This document shows positions 675-6,427 of a stretch of 64,000 nucleotides of DNA, piece after piece. Source of the DNA: Rhodovibrio salinarum DSM 9154 (GTDB lineage Bacteria > Pseudomonadota > Alphaproteobacteria > Kiloniellales > Rhodovibrionaceae). A program made the position numbers and the translations under genes. The number at the start of each line of letters is the position of its first letter. Position 1 is the stretch's first letter. Location of the stretch: the NCBI RefSeq assembly GCF_000515255.1, contig NZ_KI911559.1:468149-532148 (forward strand), in the 5' to 3' direction. A model generated the notes under the pieces. It saw only the letters and a program-made list of their open reading frames with translations. It did no database searches and was not told the DNA's origin.

Positions 675-1760
675 ATGGCAGGCAGTAACGGCGACGACCG
701 ATCCTCGCACGCCGGTCCCAACAACGGTGCAGCGGCCGGCGCGCAAGAAGCCCCGGCGACCTTCGACGAAATCCGCCAGCTCCTTGGCGATCTGCCGGGG
801 CCGGATCTGGAGAGTCGCTCGGCCGCGACGACCCGGCAGCAGCAGTTGACCAAACCGCGTGGCTCGCTTGGCCGGTTGGAGGAACTGGCGGAATGGCTGG
901 CGGCCTGGCAGGGCGCGCATCCCCCGCGCATGGACCGCCCGCGCGTGGCGGTGTTCGCCGGCAACCACGGCGTGGCGGCGCGTGGCGTGTCGGCCTACCC
1001 CCCCGAGGTGACGCAGCAGATGGTCCAGAACTTCATCGACGGCGGGGCGGCGATCAACCAGCTGTGTGCCAACTGCGACGCCGACCTGCGGGTTTACGAG
1101 CTGGCGCTTGAGGAGCCCACGGCGGACTTCTCGCAAGCCCCCGCGATGAGCGAGGACGAGTGCGCGCGGGCCATGGCCTACGGCATGCTCGCCGTCGAAG
1201 AAGGCTTCGACGTGATGGCGCTGGGCGAGATGGGTATCGCCAACACTACCAGCGGCGCGGCGCTCTGCTGCGCCCTCTTCGGAGGCACGGCGTCGGATTG
1301 GATCGGTCCCGGCACGGGGATCGACCGGTCGGGGCTCGGCCGCAAGGCCGAAGTGGTCGACCAAGCGATGCAGTACCACCAGGGCCATCTGGACGACCCG
1401 CTGGAGGTTCTGCGCCGGGTCGGCGGGCTGGAGTTGGCGGCGATCGTCGGCGCCATCCTGGCCTGTCGGCTGGCGCGCACGCCGGTGCTGCTGGACGGCT
1501 TCACCTGCACCGCTGCTGCGGCGGTGCTGTACAAGCTGGATCCTCACCTGCTGGACCATTGCGTGGTCGCGCACGTCTCTGCCGAGCCGGGGCATCGGCG
1601 ACTGCTGCAGGAGATCGGGAAGCGTGCGCTGGTCGATCTGGACATGCGCTTGGGGGAGGCCTCCGGCGCGGCGGTGGCAATCCCGCTGCTGCAAGCGGCG
1701 GTTAGCTGCCACGCCGGTATGGCGACCTTCGACGAGGCCGGGGTCTCGACCCCGGACTGA
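675..1760 (+). CDS. cobT: Nicotinate-nucleotide--dimethylbenzimidazole phosphoribosyltransferase
   Basis: Makes alpha-ribazole phosphate from nicotinate mononucleotide and dimethylbenzimidazole for the lower ligand of cobalamin. The 361-residue product matches the usual 340-360 residues. It carries the family motifs KPRGSLGRLEELAEWLA near residue 60, FAGNHGVAARGVSAYP, EMGIANTTSGAA and, near the C-terminus, GEASGAA, where the family's catalytic glutamate is expected. It ends in MATFDEAGVS, as in other CobT proteins. The first 35 or so residues are low in complexity, so a later start is possible. It is divergent from cobS, which uses its product after dephosphorylation. Confidence 0.96.
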   Translation: MAGSNGDDRSSHAGPNNGAAAGAQEAPATFDEIRQLLGDLPGPDLESRSAATTRQQQLTKPRGSLGRLEELAEWLAAWQGAHPPRMDRPRVAVFAGNHGVAARGVSAYPPEVTQQMVQNFIDGGAAINQLCANCDADLRVYELALEEPTADFSQAPAMSEDECARAMAYGMLAVEEGFDVMALGEMGIANTTSGAALCCALFGGTASDWIGPGTGIDRSGLGRKAEVVDQAMQYHQGHLDDPLEVLRRVGGLELAAIVGAILACRLARTPVLLDGFTCTAAAAVLYKLDPHLLDHCVVAHVSAEPGHRRLLQEIGKRALVDLDMRLGEASGAAVAIPLLQAAVSCHAGMATFDEAGVSTPD

Positions 1761-1871: not shown

Positions 1872-2642
1872 ATGCGAGCAGTCGTACACGCCGTGGTCCA
1901 CCGCGGCGCGGTGCGCTCCGGCAACGAGGACACGCTCGCTGTCGGCGATTGGGTCGCCCCCGATGACATTGAGCGGCCCAAGCGCTTCACCCATGAGCTG
2001 ACGACACCGCTGCCGGTGATCGTGGCCGACGGCATGGGCGGCCACGCGGCCGGTGACGTGGCAAGCCGTTACGTTACCGAAACGATTCTGCAGGGCGCGG
2101 CCGATGTGCAGGGTGCTGGCGACGCGGGCAACCTGCTGCTCCACGTCAACCGGCGCCTGTACGAGGCGATGGCGCAGGGCCTCGGTGCCTCCGGCATGGG
2201 GACCACCGTGGCCGGCGTGATCCTGCGCGAGATCGGCGCGGTGGTGTTTAACGTCGGCGACAGCCGAATCTACCGGATGGATCCGGGCGCGCGGGCGCTG
2301 ACCCAGCTGTCGGTCGACGACACGCCCGGCCCGAAGATGGCGAACGGTCGAACAGCCCAGCAGATCACCCCGATGGTCAGCCAATCGCTGGGCGGGCAGC
2401 CGAGCTATACCGCGATCGAACCGCATGCCGAAGACGATGCGCCGCCGGTCGATGGGACCTGTTACCTGGTGTGCAGCGATGGCCTGAGCGATCTGCTGTC
2501 GGCGGGCGAGATCGAGGAGATCCTGGCGCGCGCGGACGATGACGAAGGTGATTTTTGCGCGGTCGACCGATTGTTTCAGGCCGCTCTCGACCGTGGTGGC
2601 AAGGACAACGTGACGATCGCCCTGGTGCGCTGCCTCGCCTAG
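1872..2642 (+). CDS. PP2C-family serine/threonine protein phosphatase
   Basis: Predicted cytosolic Mn/Mg-dependent protein phosphatase (Stp1/PrpC type) of 256 residues. All metal-site motifs are present: RSGNED near residue 15, VVADGMGGHAAGD near 50, GMGTTVAG, VFNVGDSRIYRM, CSDGLSDLL and the final GKDNVTIALV. The ATG at 1872 is chosen because AGGAG lies 8 bases upstream. The frame is open further upstream to a TTG at 1812, but with no good ribosome binding site. There is no adjacent Hanks-type kinase. It precedes the c-di-GMP and Kai genes on the same strand with a 245-bp gap, so it may be independently transcribed. Its substrate is unknown. Confidence 0.9.
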   Translation: MRAVVHAVVHRGAVRSGNEDTLAVGDWVAPDDIERPKRFTHELTTPLPVIVADGMGGHAAGDVASRYVTETILQGAADVQGAGDAGNLLLHVNRRLYEAMAQGLGASGMGTTVAGVILREIGAVVFNVGDSRIYRMDPGARALTQLSVDDTPGPKMANGRTAQQITPMVSQSLGGQPSYTAIEPHAEDDAPPVDGTCYLVCSDGLSDLLSAGEIEEILARADDDEGDFCAVDRLFQAALDRGGKDNVTIALVRCLA

Positions 2643-2887
2643 GCGCTGGTGAGCGAACGCGTGTGGCCGCGGCTTGGCGGTAAGCGTTTCGAAACCATGC
2701 GTGTGCCATCTGTGGCACGGTGGCCGGTTTGACGTAAGTGGGGCTGTACGCCGTGACAGCGCGTCGGTCTTGTTTTGCCCTAAAGCGGGTCGCGGGCCTA
2801 TCGTGCGCAACCGACCGGGGTATACCAGCCGTGCTCACTCTACCTAGCCCGGATCGCCAGCTGTAACAGCATTGGGAATGGCCCGCC

Positions 2888-4522
2888 GTGCCCGAGGGCG
2901 ACAGCAAAGACATTCACCCGACCCCACGCCGTTTGGCGATCAAAGTGGCAGGGCAGTTTTTGGCCGGCGGTTTGGTCATGGTCGCCGCGCTTGCCGCTCT
3001 GGCGGAATTTGCCGGTGTGCCGTGGCACGGGCGTTTCCTGCCCGAGACGGCACGCAACGCGATCTTTGTTTCCGTCGGCGCGGTGGTCGTCGTGCTGCTG
3101 GTTTGGCGTCAGGCGCGCCGGGACTGGCCGATACCGGCCACCGTGATGCGGGCGCAAGCAGCCGATCCCTGCACCCGCGACGTGCTGACCGGCCTGCCTA
3201 ACCGCGAGGGGCTGCGTGCGGCGATCGACGCGCGGCTTGCCGAGGGCTGCGATATCAGCCGCGGTGTGCTTGTGTTGGTGGAATTGCGTGGACTGGCGGT
3301 GGTCAACGACACGCGCGGGATCATGGTCGGTGATGCCTTGCTGGAGGAAGTTGCGGAGCGTTTGAACACGGCGTTCGGTCCGGACTCCCAGATGGCCGGT
3401 ATGGTTGCGCGGTTGAGCGGCGACGAGTTTGCGCTGTTCTTTGACGCGCCGGAGGGTCTCGATGCGAGCGAAGCCGGTTTGCGCGTGGGCCAGCAGGCGG
3501 TGGCGCAAGTTGATCAGCCGGTGATCGTGCCCGGGCACACGCTGCACGTTGGGGGCCGCGCCGGTGTCGCCATTGGCGACAGCGAGATCGTCGGGGCGAG
3601 TCTCTGGCTGCAGCGGGCCGATCTGGCGCTGAGCCAGGCGTGTTCCGACAGTACCGATCCGATTTGCCTGTTCGAGCCGGTATTTGCCGAGAATGCGCGG
3701 GCGCAGGCGCAACTGGAGACGGAACTGCGCGCGGCGGTCGAGCAGAAGCAGTTCGAACTGCACTACCAACCGAAGGTCGACCTGTCCGACGGGCGGATCG
3801 TCGGGGCGGAAGCGCTTATCCGCTGGCGTCATCCAGCCTTCGGCTTGCAGATGCCCGGGCGGTTCATCGACGTTGCCGAGCGCAGCGGCCTGATGGTTCC
3901 GATCGGCGCCTGGGTGCTGCGTGCCGCCCTCAGGGAAGCCGCGGCATGGCCGCCCGTGGCCGGGCATCGGCCGCACATTGCGGTGAACGTCTCCGCCGTG
4001 CAGTTCGCCGACCCGTACTTCGAAAGCTACCTCGACTCCGCCCTGGCCGAGAGCGGCATCGACCCGCAGCGGGTCGTGCTGGAAATGACCGAAAGCATGC
4101 TGCAACTCGACGGCCAGGCGCTGGTCGATCGGCTGAAGGGGCTGCGGGCGCGTGGCTTGGGACTCTCGATCGATGACTTCGGCACCGGCTACTCCGCGCT
4201 TGCTTACCTGAAGCGCTATCCGGTGAACGAGATCAAGATCGATCGGGCGTTCGTCACCGCCTTGCAGGACGACCCTTATGACCGTGCCCTGGTCGACGCG
4301 ATTCAGCGGCTTGCCGCCGCACTGGACATGCCGGTGACGGCGGAAGGCGTGGAGACGCTCGCCCAGGGAGACGTGCTGGTCCGACTGGGATGCACGCGGG
4401 CGCAGGGCTACTTCTATGCAATGCCGCTGGGATCGGCGGATTTCAGGTGGTTGCTGGGCAACCATTCCCATCTGCCGGTTCCCGAGCAGCCGCAAGCCTC
4501 GGCGATGGGGAGCCGTCTATGA
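2888..4522 (+). CDS. Membrane GGDEF-EAL domain protein (cyclic-di-GMP signalling)
   Basis: A 544-residue protein with two predicted N-terminal membrane helices (about residues 17-40 and 55-77), a GGDEF domain (about 95-260) and an EAL domain (about 275-525). The cyclase signature is RLSGDEF rather than GGDEF, so cyclase activity is uncertain. The EAL domain keeps GAEALIRWRHP, VNVSAVQF, EMTES, SIDDFGTGYS, IKIDRAFV and AEGVET, which argues for an active phosphodiesterase. No periplasmic sensor domain is visible between the short helices. The start is a GTG at 2888 with a weak ribosome binding site. It ends 91 bp before kaiC on the same strand, so co-transcription is possible. Confidence 0.92.
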   Translation: MPEGDSKDIHPTPRRLAIKVAGQFLAGGLVMVAALAALAEFAGVPWHGRFLPETARNAIFVSVGAVVVVLLVWRQARRDWPIPATVMRAQAADPCTRDVLTGLPNREGLRAAIDARLAEGCDISRGVLVLVELRGLAVVNDTRGIMVGDALLEEVAERLNTAFGPDSQMAGMVARLSGDEFALFFDAPEGLDASEAGLRVGQQAVAQVDQPVIVPGHTLHVGGRAGVAIGDSEIVGASLWLQRADLALSQACSDSTDPICLFEPVFAENARAQAQLETELRAAVEQKQFELHYQPKVDLSDGRIVGAEALIRWRHPAFGLQMPGRFIDVAERSGLMVPIGAWVLRAALREAAAWPPVAGHRPHIAVNVSAVQFADPYFESYLDSALAESGIDPQRVVLEMTESMLQLDGQALVDRLKGLRARGLGLSIDDFGTGYSALAYLKRYPVNEIKIDRAFVTALQDDPYDRALVDAIQRLAAALDMPVTAEGVETLAQGDVLVRLGCTRAQGYFYAMPLGSADFRWLLGNHSHLPVPEQPQASAMGSRL

Positions 4523-4613
4523 TGAGGCGTTTGCCGAGGGCGCTGGACAGCCAGGACGCGCGACATGTAGATCGCTCGACGATCAGCAGATCCTTCGGTC
4601 TAGGCAGGGGACA

Positions 4614-6134
4614 ATGACCGATTGCACAGAGCCGCGAAGCGGTGGACCGACCGACAGGCCCATGGGCAAACGTCCTACCGGGATTGTCGGGTTCGATCAG
4701 TTGAGCCGCGGGGGGCTCCCCGCCAATGCTGCGACCCTTTTGCTGGGCGGACCTGGTGCCGGCAAGACGGTGTTTGCGCTCCAGACGGTGGTGAACGCCG
4801 CGCACCAAAGCGGCACCCGCGCCGTTTTCGTCGCGTTCGAGGAGACACCTGAAGAGGTCCGGTCGAACGCCGCCGCATTCGATTGGGCCCAGAACGGCGA
4901 ACTGGAAAAGCTGCACTTCATCGACGCGCGCGGCCCGCTGGCCGCGTCGGCAACCGGCAGATTCGATCTCTCCGGCCTGCTGGCGCAGCTGGGCGAATTG
5001 GCGCGGCGTGAGGATATCGGCTGGATCGTGCTGGACGGGCTGGACAACGTGCTCGATCTGCTGCCGGACGAGGTGTCGCACCGGCGCGAGATCTTCCGGC
5101 TCTCCGATTTCCTGTCCGAGATCAGGGTGCCAGCGCTTGTGACCGGCAAGCTTAACGGCGAGGAGGCCGCGCTTAGCAGTTACGACGCCATGCAGTTCGC
5201 CGCGCGGATGGTGGTCAAGCTGAGTGGTGGCCTGAACAACGGCGTATTCGGGCGGTCGCTGCGCATCGTCAAATACCGCGGCAGTGACCACGATAACATC
5301 GAAGCGCCGTTCGTGATCGATGCCGGTGGGATCGCGGTGGCCTACCACGGGGCGAATGTGCCGCAGCACAAGCTGAGCAGCGACCGCTTGCCGACGGGTG
5401 TTTCGGGGCTGGATCAGGTGCTCGGCGGTGGCTATCAGCGGGGATACGCCGTTCTGCTCTCCGGTGCGCCGGGCACAGCCAAGACGACGCTGGGCGCCTG
5501 CTTCCTGTCGGCCGGTGTGGATGCCGGCGAGCGGGGGCTGCTGGTCGCCCTGGACGAGACGTACGAGCAGATCGCCACGAACGCGGCCGGCATCGGCCTT
5601 CATCTGCAAGAGCAGATCGCCGATGGTCGGGTGATGGCGCTCTCCATGCGCTCGGCTCCTTTGGTGCCAGAGGCCTTTTTCTTGAGGATCGAGCGGGCGA
5701 TTCGCGAGCATTCTCCGACCATCGTCGTGATCGATCCGATTTCCGCGGTGATGGAGCGACGCCTGCAGCGCGCCCCGTTCGACGCGGCGGCGCGGTTGGT
5801 CGACCTTTGCAAGTCCCGCGGCATCACCTTGATGACCACAACCTTGGCCTCCGGTGTCGACGATCCGGAGGCGCGCAGCCGGATTTCCACCCTCGCCGAT
5901 GCTTGGATCGCGCTCTCCTATCAGGTGCAGACGGGTGCGCGGAAACGCGCCCTGTCGGTAGTCAAGGCGCGCGGGATTCTCCACTCCAATCAGGTGAGCG
6001 AACTGGTGATTGGGGCGAACGGCGTGCATTTGGCAGAGATCCATCCCGATGAGGGCGCGGCGCGCATTACCCGATCACCACAAGACGACTCGAATGAAGC
6101 CGAGCGTCGGCGGCGGGGGGACGGCGAGACATGA
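4614..6134 (+). CDS. kaiC: Circadian clock-type ATPase KaiC
   Basis: A double RecA-fold ATPase/autokinase of 506 residues (cyanobacterial KaiC is 519). CI has Walker A GGPGAGKT at 45-52 and the catalytic pair FEETP at 75-79. CII has Walker A GAPGTAKT at 284-291. The clock phosphorylation pair is conserved as RISTLAD (Ser425, Thr426, matching Ser431/Thr432 in Synechococcus). The CI arginine region KYRG and CII KARG are also kept. In CII the expected Glu-Glu is Asp-Glu (DET, 314-316). The frame is open back to 4416, but the ATG at 4614 is preceded by a purine-rich CAGGGG and gives the normal length. It overlaps kaiB by ATGA. No kaiA was seen. Confidence 0.95.
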   Translation: MTDCTEPRSGGPTDRPMGKRPTGIVGFDQLSRGGLPANAATLLLGGPGAGKTVFALQTVVNAAHQSGTRAVFVAFEETPEEVRSNAAAFDWAQNGELEKLHFIDARGPLAASATGRFDLSGLLAQLGELARREDIGWIVLDGLDNVLDLLPDEVSHRREIFRLSDFLSEIRVPALVTGKLNGEEAALSSYDAMQFAARMVVKLSGGLNNGVFGRSLRIVKYRGSDHDNIEAPFVIDAGGIAVAYHGANVPQHKLSSDRLPTGVSGLDQVLGGGYQRGYAVLLSGAPGTAKTTLGACFLSAGVDAGERGLLVALDETYEQIATNAAGIGLHLQEQIADGRVMALSMRSAPLVPEAFFLRIERAIREHSPTIVVIDPISAVMERRLQRAPFDAAARLVDLCKSRGITLMTTTLASGVDDPEARSRISTLADAWIALSYQVQTGARKRALSVVKARGILHSNQVSELVIGANGVHLAEIHPDEGAARITRSPQDDSNEAERRRRGDGET

Positions 6135-6427
6135 GCGATGGCGGCTCCGAGCGTCAGCCCGCGGCGCAGGTTGACTCCCTGACGGTGTTCATTGCCGGGG
6201 ACGCGCCCAGTTCGCGGCAGGCGATGACCAATCTAACCGGCGTGCTGGATTCCCTGGATATCCCGCCCGAACGCCTCGAGGTGGTTGATGTTTTGACCAA
6301 CCCGGCCGCGGCGCTGAAGGCGGGTGCCCTGGTCACCCCGTCTCTGCAGGTCAAACGTGGCCAGCAGGTGTACTGGTTCCTGGGCGACCTGACAGAGCAA
6401 CGCGACCTGCTGGCGTTCCTGGTCTAA
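6131..6427 (+). CDS. kaiB: Circadian clock protein KaiB
   Basis: A 98-residue thioredoxin-like fold-switching protein that binds KaiC and promotes its dephosphorylation phase. Family features are LTVFIAGDAPSSRQAM, the VDVLTNPAAA segment, the cis-proline motif VTPSL and GDLTEQRDLLAFL. The start codon overlaps the kaiC stop (ATGA), so the two are translationally coupled. With kaiA absent, this would be a two-protein KaiBC system as described in other proteobacteria. Whether it runs a self-sustained or hourglass rhythm cannot be told from sequence. Confidence 0.93.
   Translation: MSDGGSERQPAAQVDSLTVFIAGDAPSSRQAMTNLTGVLDSLDIPPERLEVVDVLTNPAAALKAGALVTPSLQVKRGQQVYWFLGDLTEQRDLLAFLV

Follow-up and report, generated by a model that had tools for sequence, protein, structure and literature searches.

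The 64,000-nucleotide stretch of the Rhodovibrio salinarum DSM 9154 genome analysed here (contig NZ_KI911559.1, positions 468,149 to 532,148; hereafter the window) carries a kaiC-kaiB pair preceded by a gene for a GGDEF-EAL protein and, further upstream, by genes for a PP2C phosphatase and CobT. These five open reading frames are consecutive and all lie on the plus strand, in the order cobT, PP2C, GGDEF-EAL, kaiC, kaiB; 245 bp separate the PP2C and GGDEF-EAL genes, 91 bp separate the GGDEF-EAL gene from kaiC, and the start of kaiB overlaps the end of kaiC by 4 bp. A preliminary description of the locus had reported four genes in line, a phosphorylation pair in KaiC, an overlapping kaiB, and no histidine kinase beside kaiC. 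All of this is confirmed: the frames are open, direct numbering places the pair at Ser425 and Thr426 in the motif RISTLAD, and no HATPase domain adjoins the kai genes. No kaiA gene was found among the neighbouring genes scanned, a set smaller than the whole window or genome. The features discussed below are these, with positions in the window:

2888..4522, plus strand: GGDEF-EAL protein, a probable cyclic di-GMP (c-di-GMP) phosphodiesterase (PF00990, 74.4 bits; PF00563, 231 bits)
4614..6134, plus strand: kaiC, ATG at 4614, 506 amino acids, two KaiC domains (PF06745, 266.2 bits in two stretches)
5463..5486, plus strand: CII P-loop GAPGTAKT of kaiC, with the Ala289 codon at 5478-5480; Gly in the rows outside the clade described below
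5553..5555, plus strand: Asp314 of kaiC, aligned with the catalytic Glu318 in Synechococcus elongatus KaiC
5871..5873, plus strand: Ala420 of kaiC, the counterpart of Thr426 in S. elongatus KaiC, aligning five residues before the Ser of the pair
5886..5891, plus strand: phosphorylation pair Ser425-Thr426 of kaiC
6131..6427, plus strand: kaiB, 98 amino acids (PF07689, 29.0 bits; cut-off 27)
1872..2642, plus strand: PP2C, an Stp1-like Ser/Thr phosphatase (PF13672, PP2C_2, 43.4 bits), probably outside the module
675..1760, plus strand: cobT (TIGR03160, 403.6 bits, over the cut-off), a neighbour outside the module

The KaiC of the window combines an intact CI domain with an altered CII domain. In CI the P-loop reads GGPGAGKT and the pair of glutamates (EE) is kept, whereas CII has GAPGTAK and DE in place of the GxxxxGK[ST] P-loop and EE pair of a canonical domain. 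The protein misses the cut-offs of both NCBIfam clock KaiC profiles (TIGR02655, 200.5 against 546.25 bits; NF006799, 370.8 against 408 bits), and the KaiB of the window likewise misses those for clock KaiB, which marks the two as divergent members of their families. The likeness to the cyanobacterial KaiABC clock therefore consists of KaiC and KaiB homology and the S/T pair; the differences are the equivalents of E318D and T426A, the changed CII P-loop, the profile scores, and the lack of KaiA among the genes scanned. Cyanobacterial KaiC subgroups are reported to retain GxxxxGKT and EE (PMC5520375). In S. elongatus, Glu318 is the catalytic glutamate of CII, and E318A and E318D are both arrhythmic, although in the passages on these mutants the authors state a loss of phosphoryl transfer for E318A alone (PMC2777353). 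The T426A mutant is also arrhythmic, KaiB then being unable to antagonise KaiA, and T426 mutants are impaired in KaiB-dependent dephosphorylation (PMC2777353). Asp314 and Ala420 stand where substitutions make S. elongatus arrhythmic, which argues against a free-running, temperature-compensated rhythm. By analogy with other species, a self-sustained clock is improbable here and an hourglass or switch more likely. The term 'clock' used in the preliminary description is better read as 'timer or switch'; that description did not include the altered CII site, Ala420 or the missing C-terminal coil described below.

To place this protein we collected KaiC sequences from related genomes, searching with thresholds of 1e-60 or 1e-50 and counting the genome at the centre of each search. 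Hits were obtained in 7 of 61 genomes of the order, 13 of 385 of the class, 33 of 398 of the phylum, and 23 of 369 of the class of G558, a genome from another class of the phylum; further loci came from named contigs (12 loci) and plasmids (15 records, three of them examined). The loci were seeded by the window KaiC and the G558 KaiC and part of the hits was taken, giving a non-random sample with related rows; some loci are short on one side of kaiC (upstream, for example, 594 bp in L016 and 980 bp in L195, where the contig holds just the EAL part of the GGDEF-EAL gene). Of 75 rows gathered, 73 entered the tree, after a fragment (L212) and the first, degenerate KaiC of L198 had been dropped; two other fragments (L026, L197) were never part of the row set.

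In a tree from which the P-loop and EE columns had been excluded, the window KaiC belongs to a 16-row clade (support 100/99) that spans two classes of the phylum. One member, L030, joins the clade on a very long branch; since it has the ordinary Gly and is gapped where the Glu would align, we include it among the 58 other rows. Among the remaining 15 clade rows, the residue before the CII P-loop Lys is Ala in 13 and Ser in two, while it is Gly in 58/58 of the others. The first residue of the CII EE pair is Asp in all 15, against Glu in 57 of the 58 others and one gap. The EE pair of CI is kept in all 14 clade rows that cover this domain. Ala in the CI P-loop is found in 13 of the 58 other rows, which implies that KaiC can accommodate a P-loop change of this kind. 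The position of S. elongatus T426 is more variable: in the clade it is Thr in ten rows, including Rhodovibrio sodomensis, Ser in two, and Asn, Met and Ala in one each, the Ala being that of the window, and outside the clade it is Thr in 44 of 58 rows.

The clade is also set apart by its gene neighbourhoods. In 7 of the 15 clade rows, and in none of the 58 others, kaiC is directly preceded by a GGDEF-EAL gene of the same orientation. The seven rows represent five genera (the window, R. sodomensis, G558, G945, G931, G1052 and G959), and the arrangement requires three changes on the KaiC tree; the Fisher value of 4e-6 is not a chance probability, given the non-random sample and related rows. In G1052 the contig breaks off within the EAL-coding part. 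A GGDEF or EAL domain of any kind lies no more than 3 kb from kaiC in 10/15 clade rows and 11/58 others; two cases outside the clade that were not counted are L086, with a GGDEF gene directly upstream of kaiC in which no EAL was found, and L211, with the order GGDEF-EAL, kaiB, kaiC. In G558 the order is PAS-GGDEF-EAL, kaiC, kaiB, PAS-GGDEF, with 13 bp before kaiC and overlapping kaiC and kaiB. R. sodomensis, a halophilic purple bacterium and the nearest named relative at this locus, has the same order as the window from cobT to kaiB.

The 4.18 Mb genome of R. salinarum, a single contig, puts this linkage in context. It holds one two-domain kaiC (the other PF06745 matches over the cut-off are RecA and a protein named RadA-like from its domains), one kaiB over the cut-off, six GGDEF domains (E <= 1e-6) and 43 HATPase domains. 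With six GGDEF domains among roughly 3,900 genes, an estimated figure, the chance of an adjacent GGDEF gene is well under 1%, and its position beside kaiC is thus not a by-product of abundance.

In the rest of the clade the partner slot is filled in other ways. A histidine kinase with a receiver domain occupies it upstream in G098 and G375 and downstream in G010; a GGDEF-EAL gene lies downstream in G990, and a gene for a PAS/GAF protein downstream in G940 and G876. The occupation of the slot by either histidine kinases or GGDEF-EAL proteins fits an exchangeable output enzyme. According to a 2011 genome paper, in almost all non-cyanobacterial kaiC-kaiB clusters the gene that directly follows kaiC or kaiB encodes a histidine kinase or a GGDEF/EAL protein (PMC3164672). 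Those clusters resemble the window in the adjoining GGDEF/EAL gene and the ST phosphorylation pair; they differ in the downstream position of the partner, and the passages describing them do not mention an altered CII site. The association of kaiBC with GGDEF/EAL genes is therefore known in kind, while a clade with fixed active-site changes and a preferred partner appears, as far as we have seen, to be new: neither the CII-variant clade nor its motifs or upstream GGDEF-EAL genes were found in the open-licence literature searched, which was mostly judged from listings. That search also returned no paper on Rhodovibrio with kaiC or circadian, and the main text of a survey of alphaproteobacterial c-di-GMP genes (PMC9756655) makes no mention of Rhodovibrio, kai or circadian.

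The closest characterized system is the KaiBC hourglass of Rhodobacter (Cereibacter) sphaeroides, which likewise lacks KaiA beside its KaiC and KaiB and shares the KaiB fold and a two-domain KaiC with a phosphorylatable pair; the KaiC of R. sodomensis also has a C-terminal extension of similar length. It is conceivable that the window encodes a conventional hourglass of this type, with a histidine kinase encoded at another locus as its output and the GGDEF-EAL gene as an independent neighbour. The 43 HATPase domains offer candidates for such a kinase, the plasmid-borne loci of R. sphaeroides, Falsirhodobacter and Rhizobium have the order kaiC-kaiB-histidine kinase, and a histidine kinase lies within 3 kb of at least 33 of the 58 non-clade KaiC rows (the annotated kinases of L213-L215 escaped our home-made histidine kinase profile, so that all such counts are lower bounds). 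We nevertheless consider this explanation unlikely, given the upstream GGDEF-EAL gene in five clade genera and the scarcity of GGDEF domains in the genome. The window KaiC is moreover 33% identical to that of R. sphaeroides and differs from it in the CII P-loop (Ala), the catalytic residue (Asp for Glu) and the missing coil, and the kai neighbour in R. sphaeroides is an HWE histidine kinase where the window has the GGDEF-EAL gene.

The GGDEF-EAL protein itself has two hydrophobic N-terminal stretches before the GGDEF domain, identified by direct reading rather than by a predictor. In its GGDEF domain the signature GGDEF has become SGDEF and the DxDxFKxxND motif has become ELRGLAVVND, a departure from the motifs of a diguanylate cyclase, although activity is still possible. 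The EAL domain keeps EAL, N, E, DDFGTG, K, AEGVE and QG, which we take to be the catalytic residues, and has the full motif set of a phosphodiesterase. An intact EAL domain beside a degenerate GGDEF domain suggests that the protein probably acts as a c-di-GMP phosphodiesterase. The same combination of altered GGDEF motif and retained EAL residues is found in R. sodomensis, G558, G931 and both copies of G945, the incomplete G1052 piece being left out; in G558, G931 and the G945 copies the counterpart of DxDxFKxxND is D-I-x-x-[LH]-[RH]-DIND. In a tree of the GGDEF-EAL proteins with 11 controls (ten from plasmids, of which L216 and L218 are partial through trimming, and one from the genome of R. 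salinarum) and 11 other copies from kai loci, the Rhodovibrio pair groups with the copies of G558, G945, G931 and G1052 with support of 90/94, and these upstream genes are likely to be of common descent. G945 carries a second GGDEF-EAL gene downstream of kaiB (L193 4069-7047), close kin of its upstream copy and apparently a local duplication.

We propose that the locus encodes a KaiA-less KaiBC timer or switch of a divergent proteobacterial clade, with the upstream GGDEF-EAL gene as its genetic partner and probable output, a reading to which we give about an even chance. KaiC would assemble into a ring in which CI, with its intact EE pair, hydrolyses ATP, while CII would bind ATP and slowly phosphorylate Ser425 and Thr426 through the altered site, with its Asp for the catalytic Glu and its P-loop Ala. 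A high ratio of ATP to ADP would favour one state, and at a low ratio KaiB would bind CI and drive the other, as in R. sphaeroides, where KaiB binds ADP-bound KaiC (PMC10076222). The state of KaiC and KaiB would then alter the activity of the membrane GGDEF-EAL protein, mainly a c-di-GMP phosphodiesterase, and the PP2C would be a neighbour, associated with cobT. The genes, their residues, the clade, the recurring linkage and the constraint on the sequences are observed; what we infer in this scheme is that KaiC senses nucleotides and is phosphorylated in this species, that KaiC or KaiB contacts the GGDEF-EAL protein, and in which direction the effect runs.

With its partner enzyme encoded next door and its kinase site uniformly altered, the clade offers a small, concrete system for studying timer-to-c-di-GMP signalling outside the cyanobacteria, in a purple bacterium, and so bears on the role of KaiA-less KaiBC systems and their route of output. 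Extended to the subfamily with Asp for the catalytic Glu and Ala or Ser in the CII P-loop, the idea is a tentative and somewhat doubtful one: such KaiC proteins may be slow ATP/ADP switches acting directly on an adjacent signalling enzyme, which in the GGDEF-EAL branch would be a c-di-GMP phosphodiesterase whose cyclase domain has degenerated. The daily energy state of the cell would then pass directly into c-di-GMP, with no two-component relay.

Several observations weigh against the proposed partnership. The link between timer and c-di-GMP rests on gene order; the earlier suggestion that the timer may feed into c-di-GMP turnover gains support from the recurrent linkage in two classes. In G001, of the genomes compared the closest one outside the genus to have a KaiC match, our home-made profiles found no histidine kinase, GGDEF or EAL domain in 19 kb round the kai genes, and in G969 there is just a GGDEF gene, on the other strand behind kaiB. 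Within the GGDEF-EAL tree the joint clade of the Rhodovibrio, G558, G945, G931 and G1052 proteins is not starred, and the G959 copy is a clear outlier placed elsewhere; inheritance of all seven upstream copies as one gene was rejected by an approximately unbiased test (p 3e-74, with the second G945 copy held outside). The window and G558 proteins are 36-38% identical, below the 40-42% of many unrelated plasmid proteins, and the second GGDEF-EAL protein of the same genome (L109) has a partly similar change in its GGDEF domain. A scan for promoters and terminators, with no promoter-like sites and two terminator-like sites against 2.7 in shuffled sequences, is silent on a shared transcript in either direction.

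The order of events could also be the reverse, the membrane GGDEF-EAL protein setting a local c-di-GMP level that tunes KaiC as an input. A 2026 paper reports that c-di-GMP alters the rhythm of S. elongatus, shifting its period, phase and amplitude (PMC13001216). The hydrophobic N-terminal stretches of the GGDEF-EAL protein could serve in sensing, and the upstream proteins of G558, G945, G931 and G959 have PAS domains, joined in G945 and G931 by HAMP. The histidine kinases in the partner slot of clade relatives are, by contrast, what is expected of outputs such as SasA, and we know of no c-di-GMP site on KaiC, a point for which the literature was not searched. We therefore regard an input role as improbable and retain the GGDEF-EAL protein as the probable output of the KaiBC timer.

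The window KaiC is also short at its C-terminus. Past a common reference point the tail measures 36 residues in the window and 18 in G001, against 95-134 in the other 13 clade rows (99 in R. sodomensis), so that the window protein lacks the C-terminal coiled-coil extension that is a trait of R. sphaeroides KaiC. The absence of the extension from the window and G001 and its retention in R. sodomensis and 12 other clade rows point to two probable losses. When deprived of its coil, R. sphaeroides KaiC is reported to be a hexamer that still autophosphorylates and is disassembled by KaiB (PMC10076222). The region in question lies at 6030-6134 in the window, 8430-8710 in L015 and 8863-8920 in L027. 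With the coil absent from one Rhodovibrio species and present in its sister, the two form a natural pair for probing its function.

Loss of the coil and of the T426 equivalent might also be read as the decay of a KaiC that has perhaps lost its kinase as well and is on its way out. Fast divergence would agree with this, KaiC being 71-72% identical between the two Rhodovibrio species where mdh is 97% identical, as would the patchy spread of KaiC over the order (7/61 genomes at E <= 1e-60, its own included). The substitution rates tell otherwise. Between R. sodomensis and the window, nonsynonymous (dN) and synonymous (dS) rates are 0.19 and 0.86 for kaiC (dN/dS about 0.22) and 0.17 and 0.88 for the GGDEF-EAL gene (about 0.19), with a dN/dS of about 0.28 for kaiB, and there is no internal stop among the seven genes compared; mdh and sucC, with dN of 0.02, evolve more slowly. 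The kaiC and GGDEF-EAL genes are thus fast-evolving yet constrained. The phosphorylation pair, the CI EE pair and kaiB are all kept, and the P-loop and Asp changes are fixed over 15 clade rows, which random decay would not produce. Decay is accordingly very improbable.

The PP2C gene was included in the preliminary description as a possible actor on the same signalling layer, a suggestion that its distribution does not bear out. The protein carries the motifs DGMGGH, GMGTT, NVGDSR, SDGL and GGKDN by direct reading, whose roles in the family we assume, and scores 117.9 bits against the Stp1-type profile NF033484 of NCBIfam, below the cut-off of 230. Two genomes of the same family bear on this. 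In one, G001, contig 5 carries cobT and PP2C 18 bp apart with no kai genes in 19.5 kb, and contig 1 carries kaiC. In the other, G002, a PP2C 51% identical to that of the window lies between ferrochelatase and cobalamin adenosyltransferase genes, and the genome (91% complete, about 350 contigs) gave no KaiC match at E <= 1e-40. On the strength of these two genomes we reject the PP2C as a probable member of the module. Of the 61 genomes of the order, 24 have PP2C relatives (E <= 1e-10) and seven, as noted, have a KaiC match, with R. salinarum in both sets. A PP2C within 3 kb of kaiC is found in 3 of 73 KaiC rows, namely both Rhodovibrio species and L085, which is outside the clade and has its PP2C 2.7 kb from kaiC, on the opposite strand. 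Conservation of all four genes in relatives, proposed earlier as a check, was found among the examined loci in R. sodomensis alone. From this distribution the kai genes are most likely newcomers that arrived beside an older cobT-PP2C pair. Judged by titles or abstract openings, no literature linking KaiC to PP2C was found.

A direct role for the phosphatase, in which it would dephosphorylate KaiC and supply a reset lost with the T426 equivalent, has some circumstantial appeal: the protein is the sole PP2C_2 protein of the genome, no Pkinase passes the Pfam cut-off there, and the T426 mutants of S. elongatus are, as described above, poor in KaiB-dependent dephosphorylation. R. sodomensis has the same PP2C yet a Thr at the T426 position, the gene stands 245 bp from the GGDEF-EAL gene, and the arrangements in G001 and G002 again tell against it. 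We give this role very little credence.

The protein encoded by kaiB passes the Pfam cut-off narrowly, and scores 27.4 and 25.6 bits against cut-offs of 110 and 145.3 in the NCBIfam clock KaiB profiles. An AlphaFold model built from a ten-row alignment (mean predicted local distance difference test score 89.4) has the order strand-helix-strand-helix-strand-strand-helix, and its ten best matches in the PDB are all KaiB chains, with template modelling scores by query length of 0.62-0.77: six foldswitch-stabilised Thermosynechococcus chains, two from Legionella, one from R. sphaeroides and one from a KaiCBA complex model. The window protein is thus a divergent KaiB with a predicted KaiB fold, the model being silent on which KaiB fold predominates in solution. 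The kai operon of Legionella pneumophila presumably includes a further signalling gene. Its likeness to the window lies in KaiB Lpp1115 (PDB 4kun), which the model matches.

Some features of the surrounding genes were also noted. In this family the PP2C gene adjoins cobalamin or tetrapyrrole genes (window 1872-2642; L158 9631-10389; L159 6944-7771). Close to its clade-type kaiBC, G876 (L198 4210-5700) has another KaiC-like gene, a degenerate one, with genes for a histidine kinase and a GGDEF-EAL protein behind it. On the 3' side of kaiB the window has mdh and then genes read as sucC and sucD; in R. sodomensis (L015 9362-12333) ketopantoate-reductase and AMP-binding-enzyme genes on the opposite strand, absent from the window, part kaiB from mdh. 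In the gap between the PP2C and GGDEF-EAL genes (2643-2887), a block conserved with R. sodomensis lies around CTATCGTGCGC and may be the promoter of the GGDEF-EAL/kai unit.

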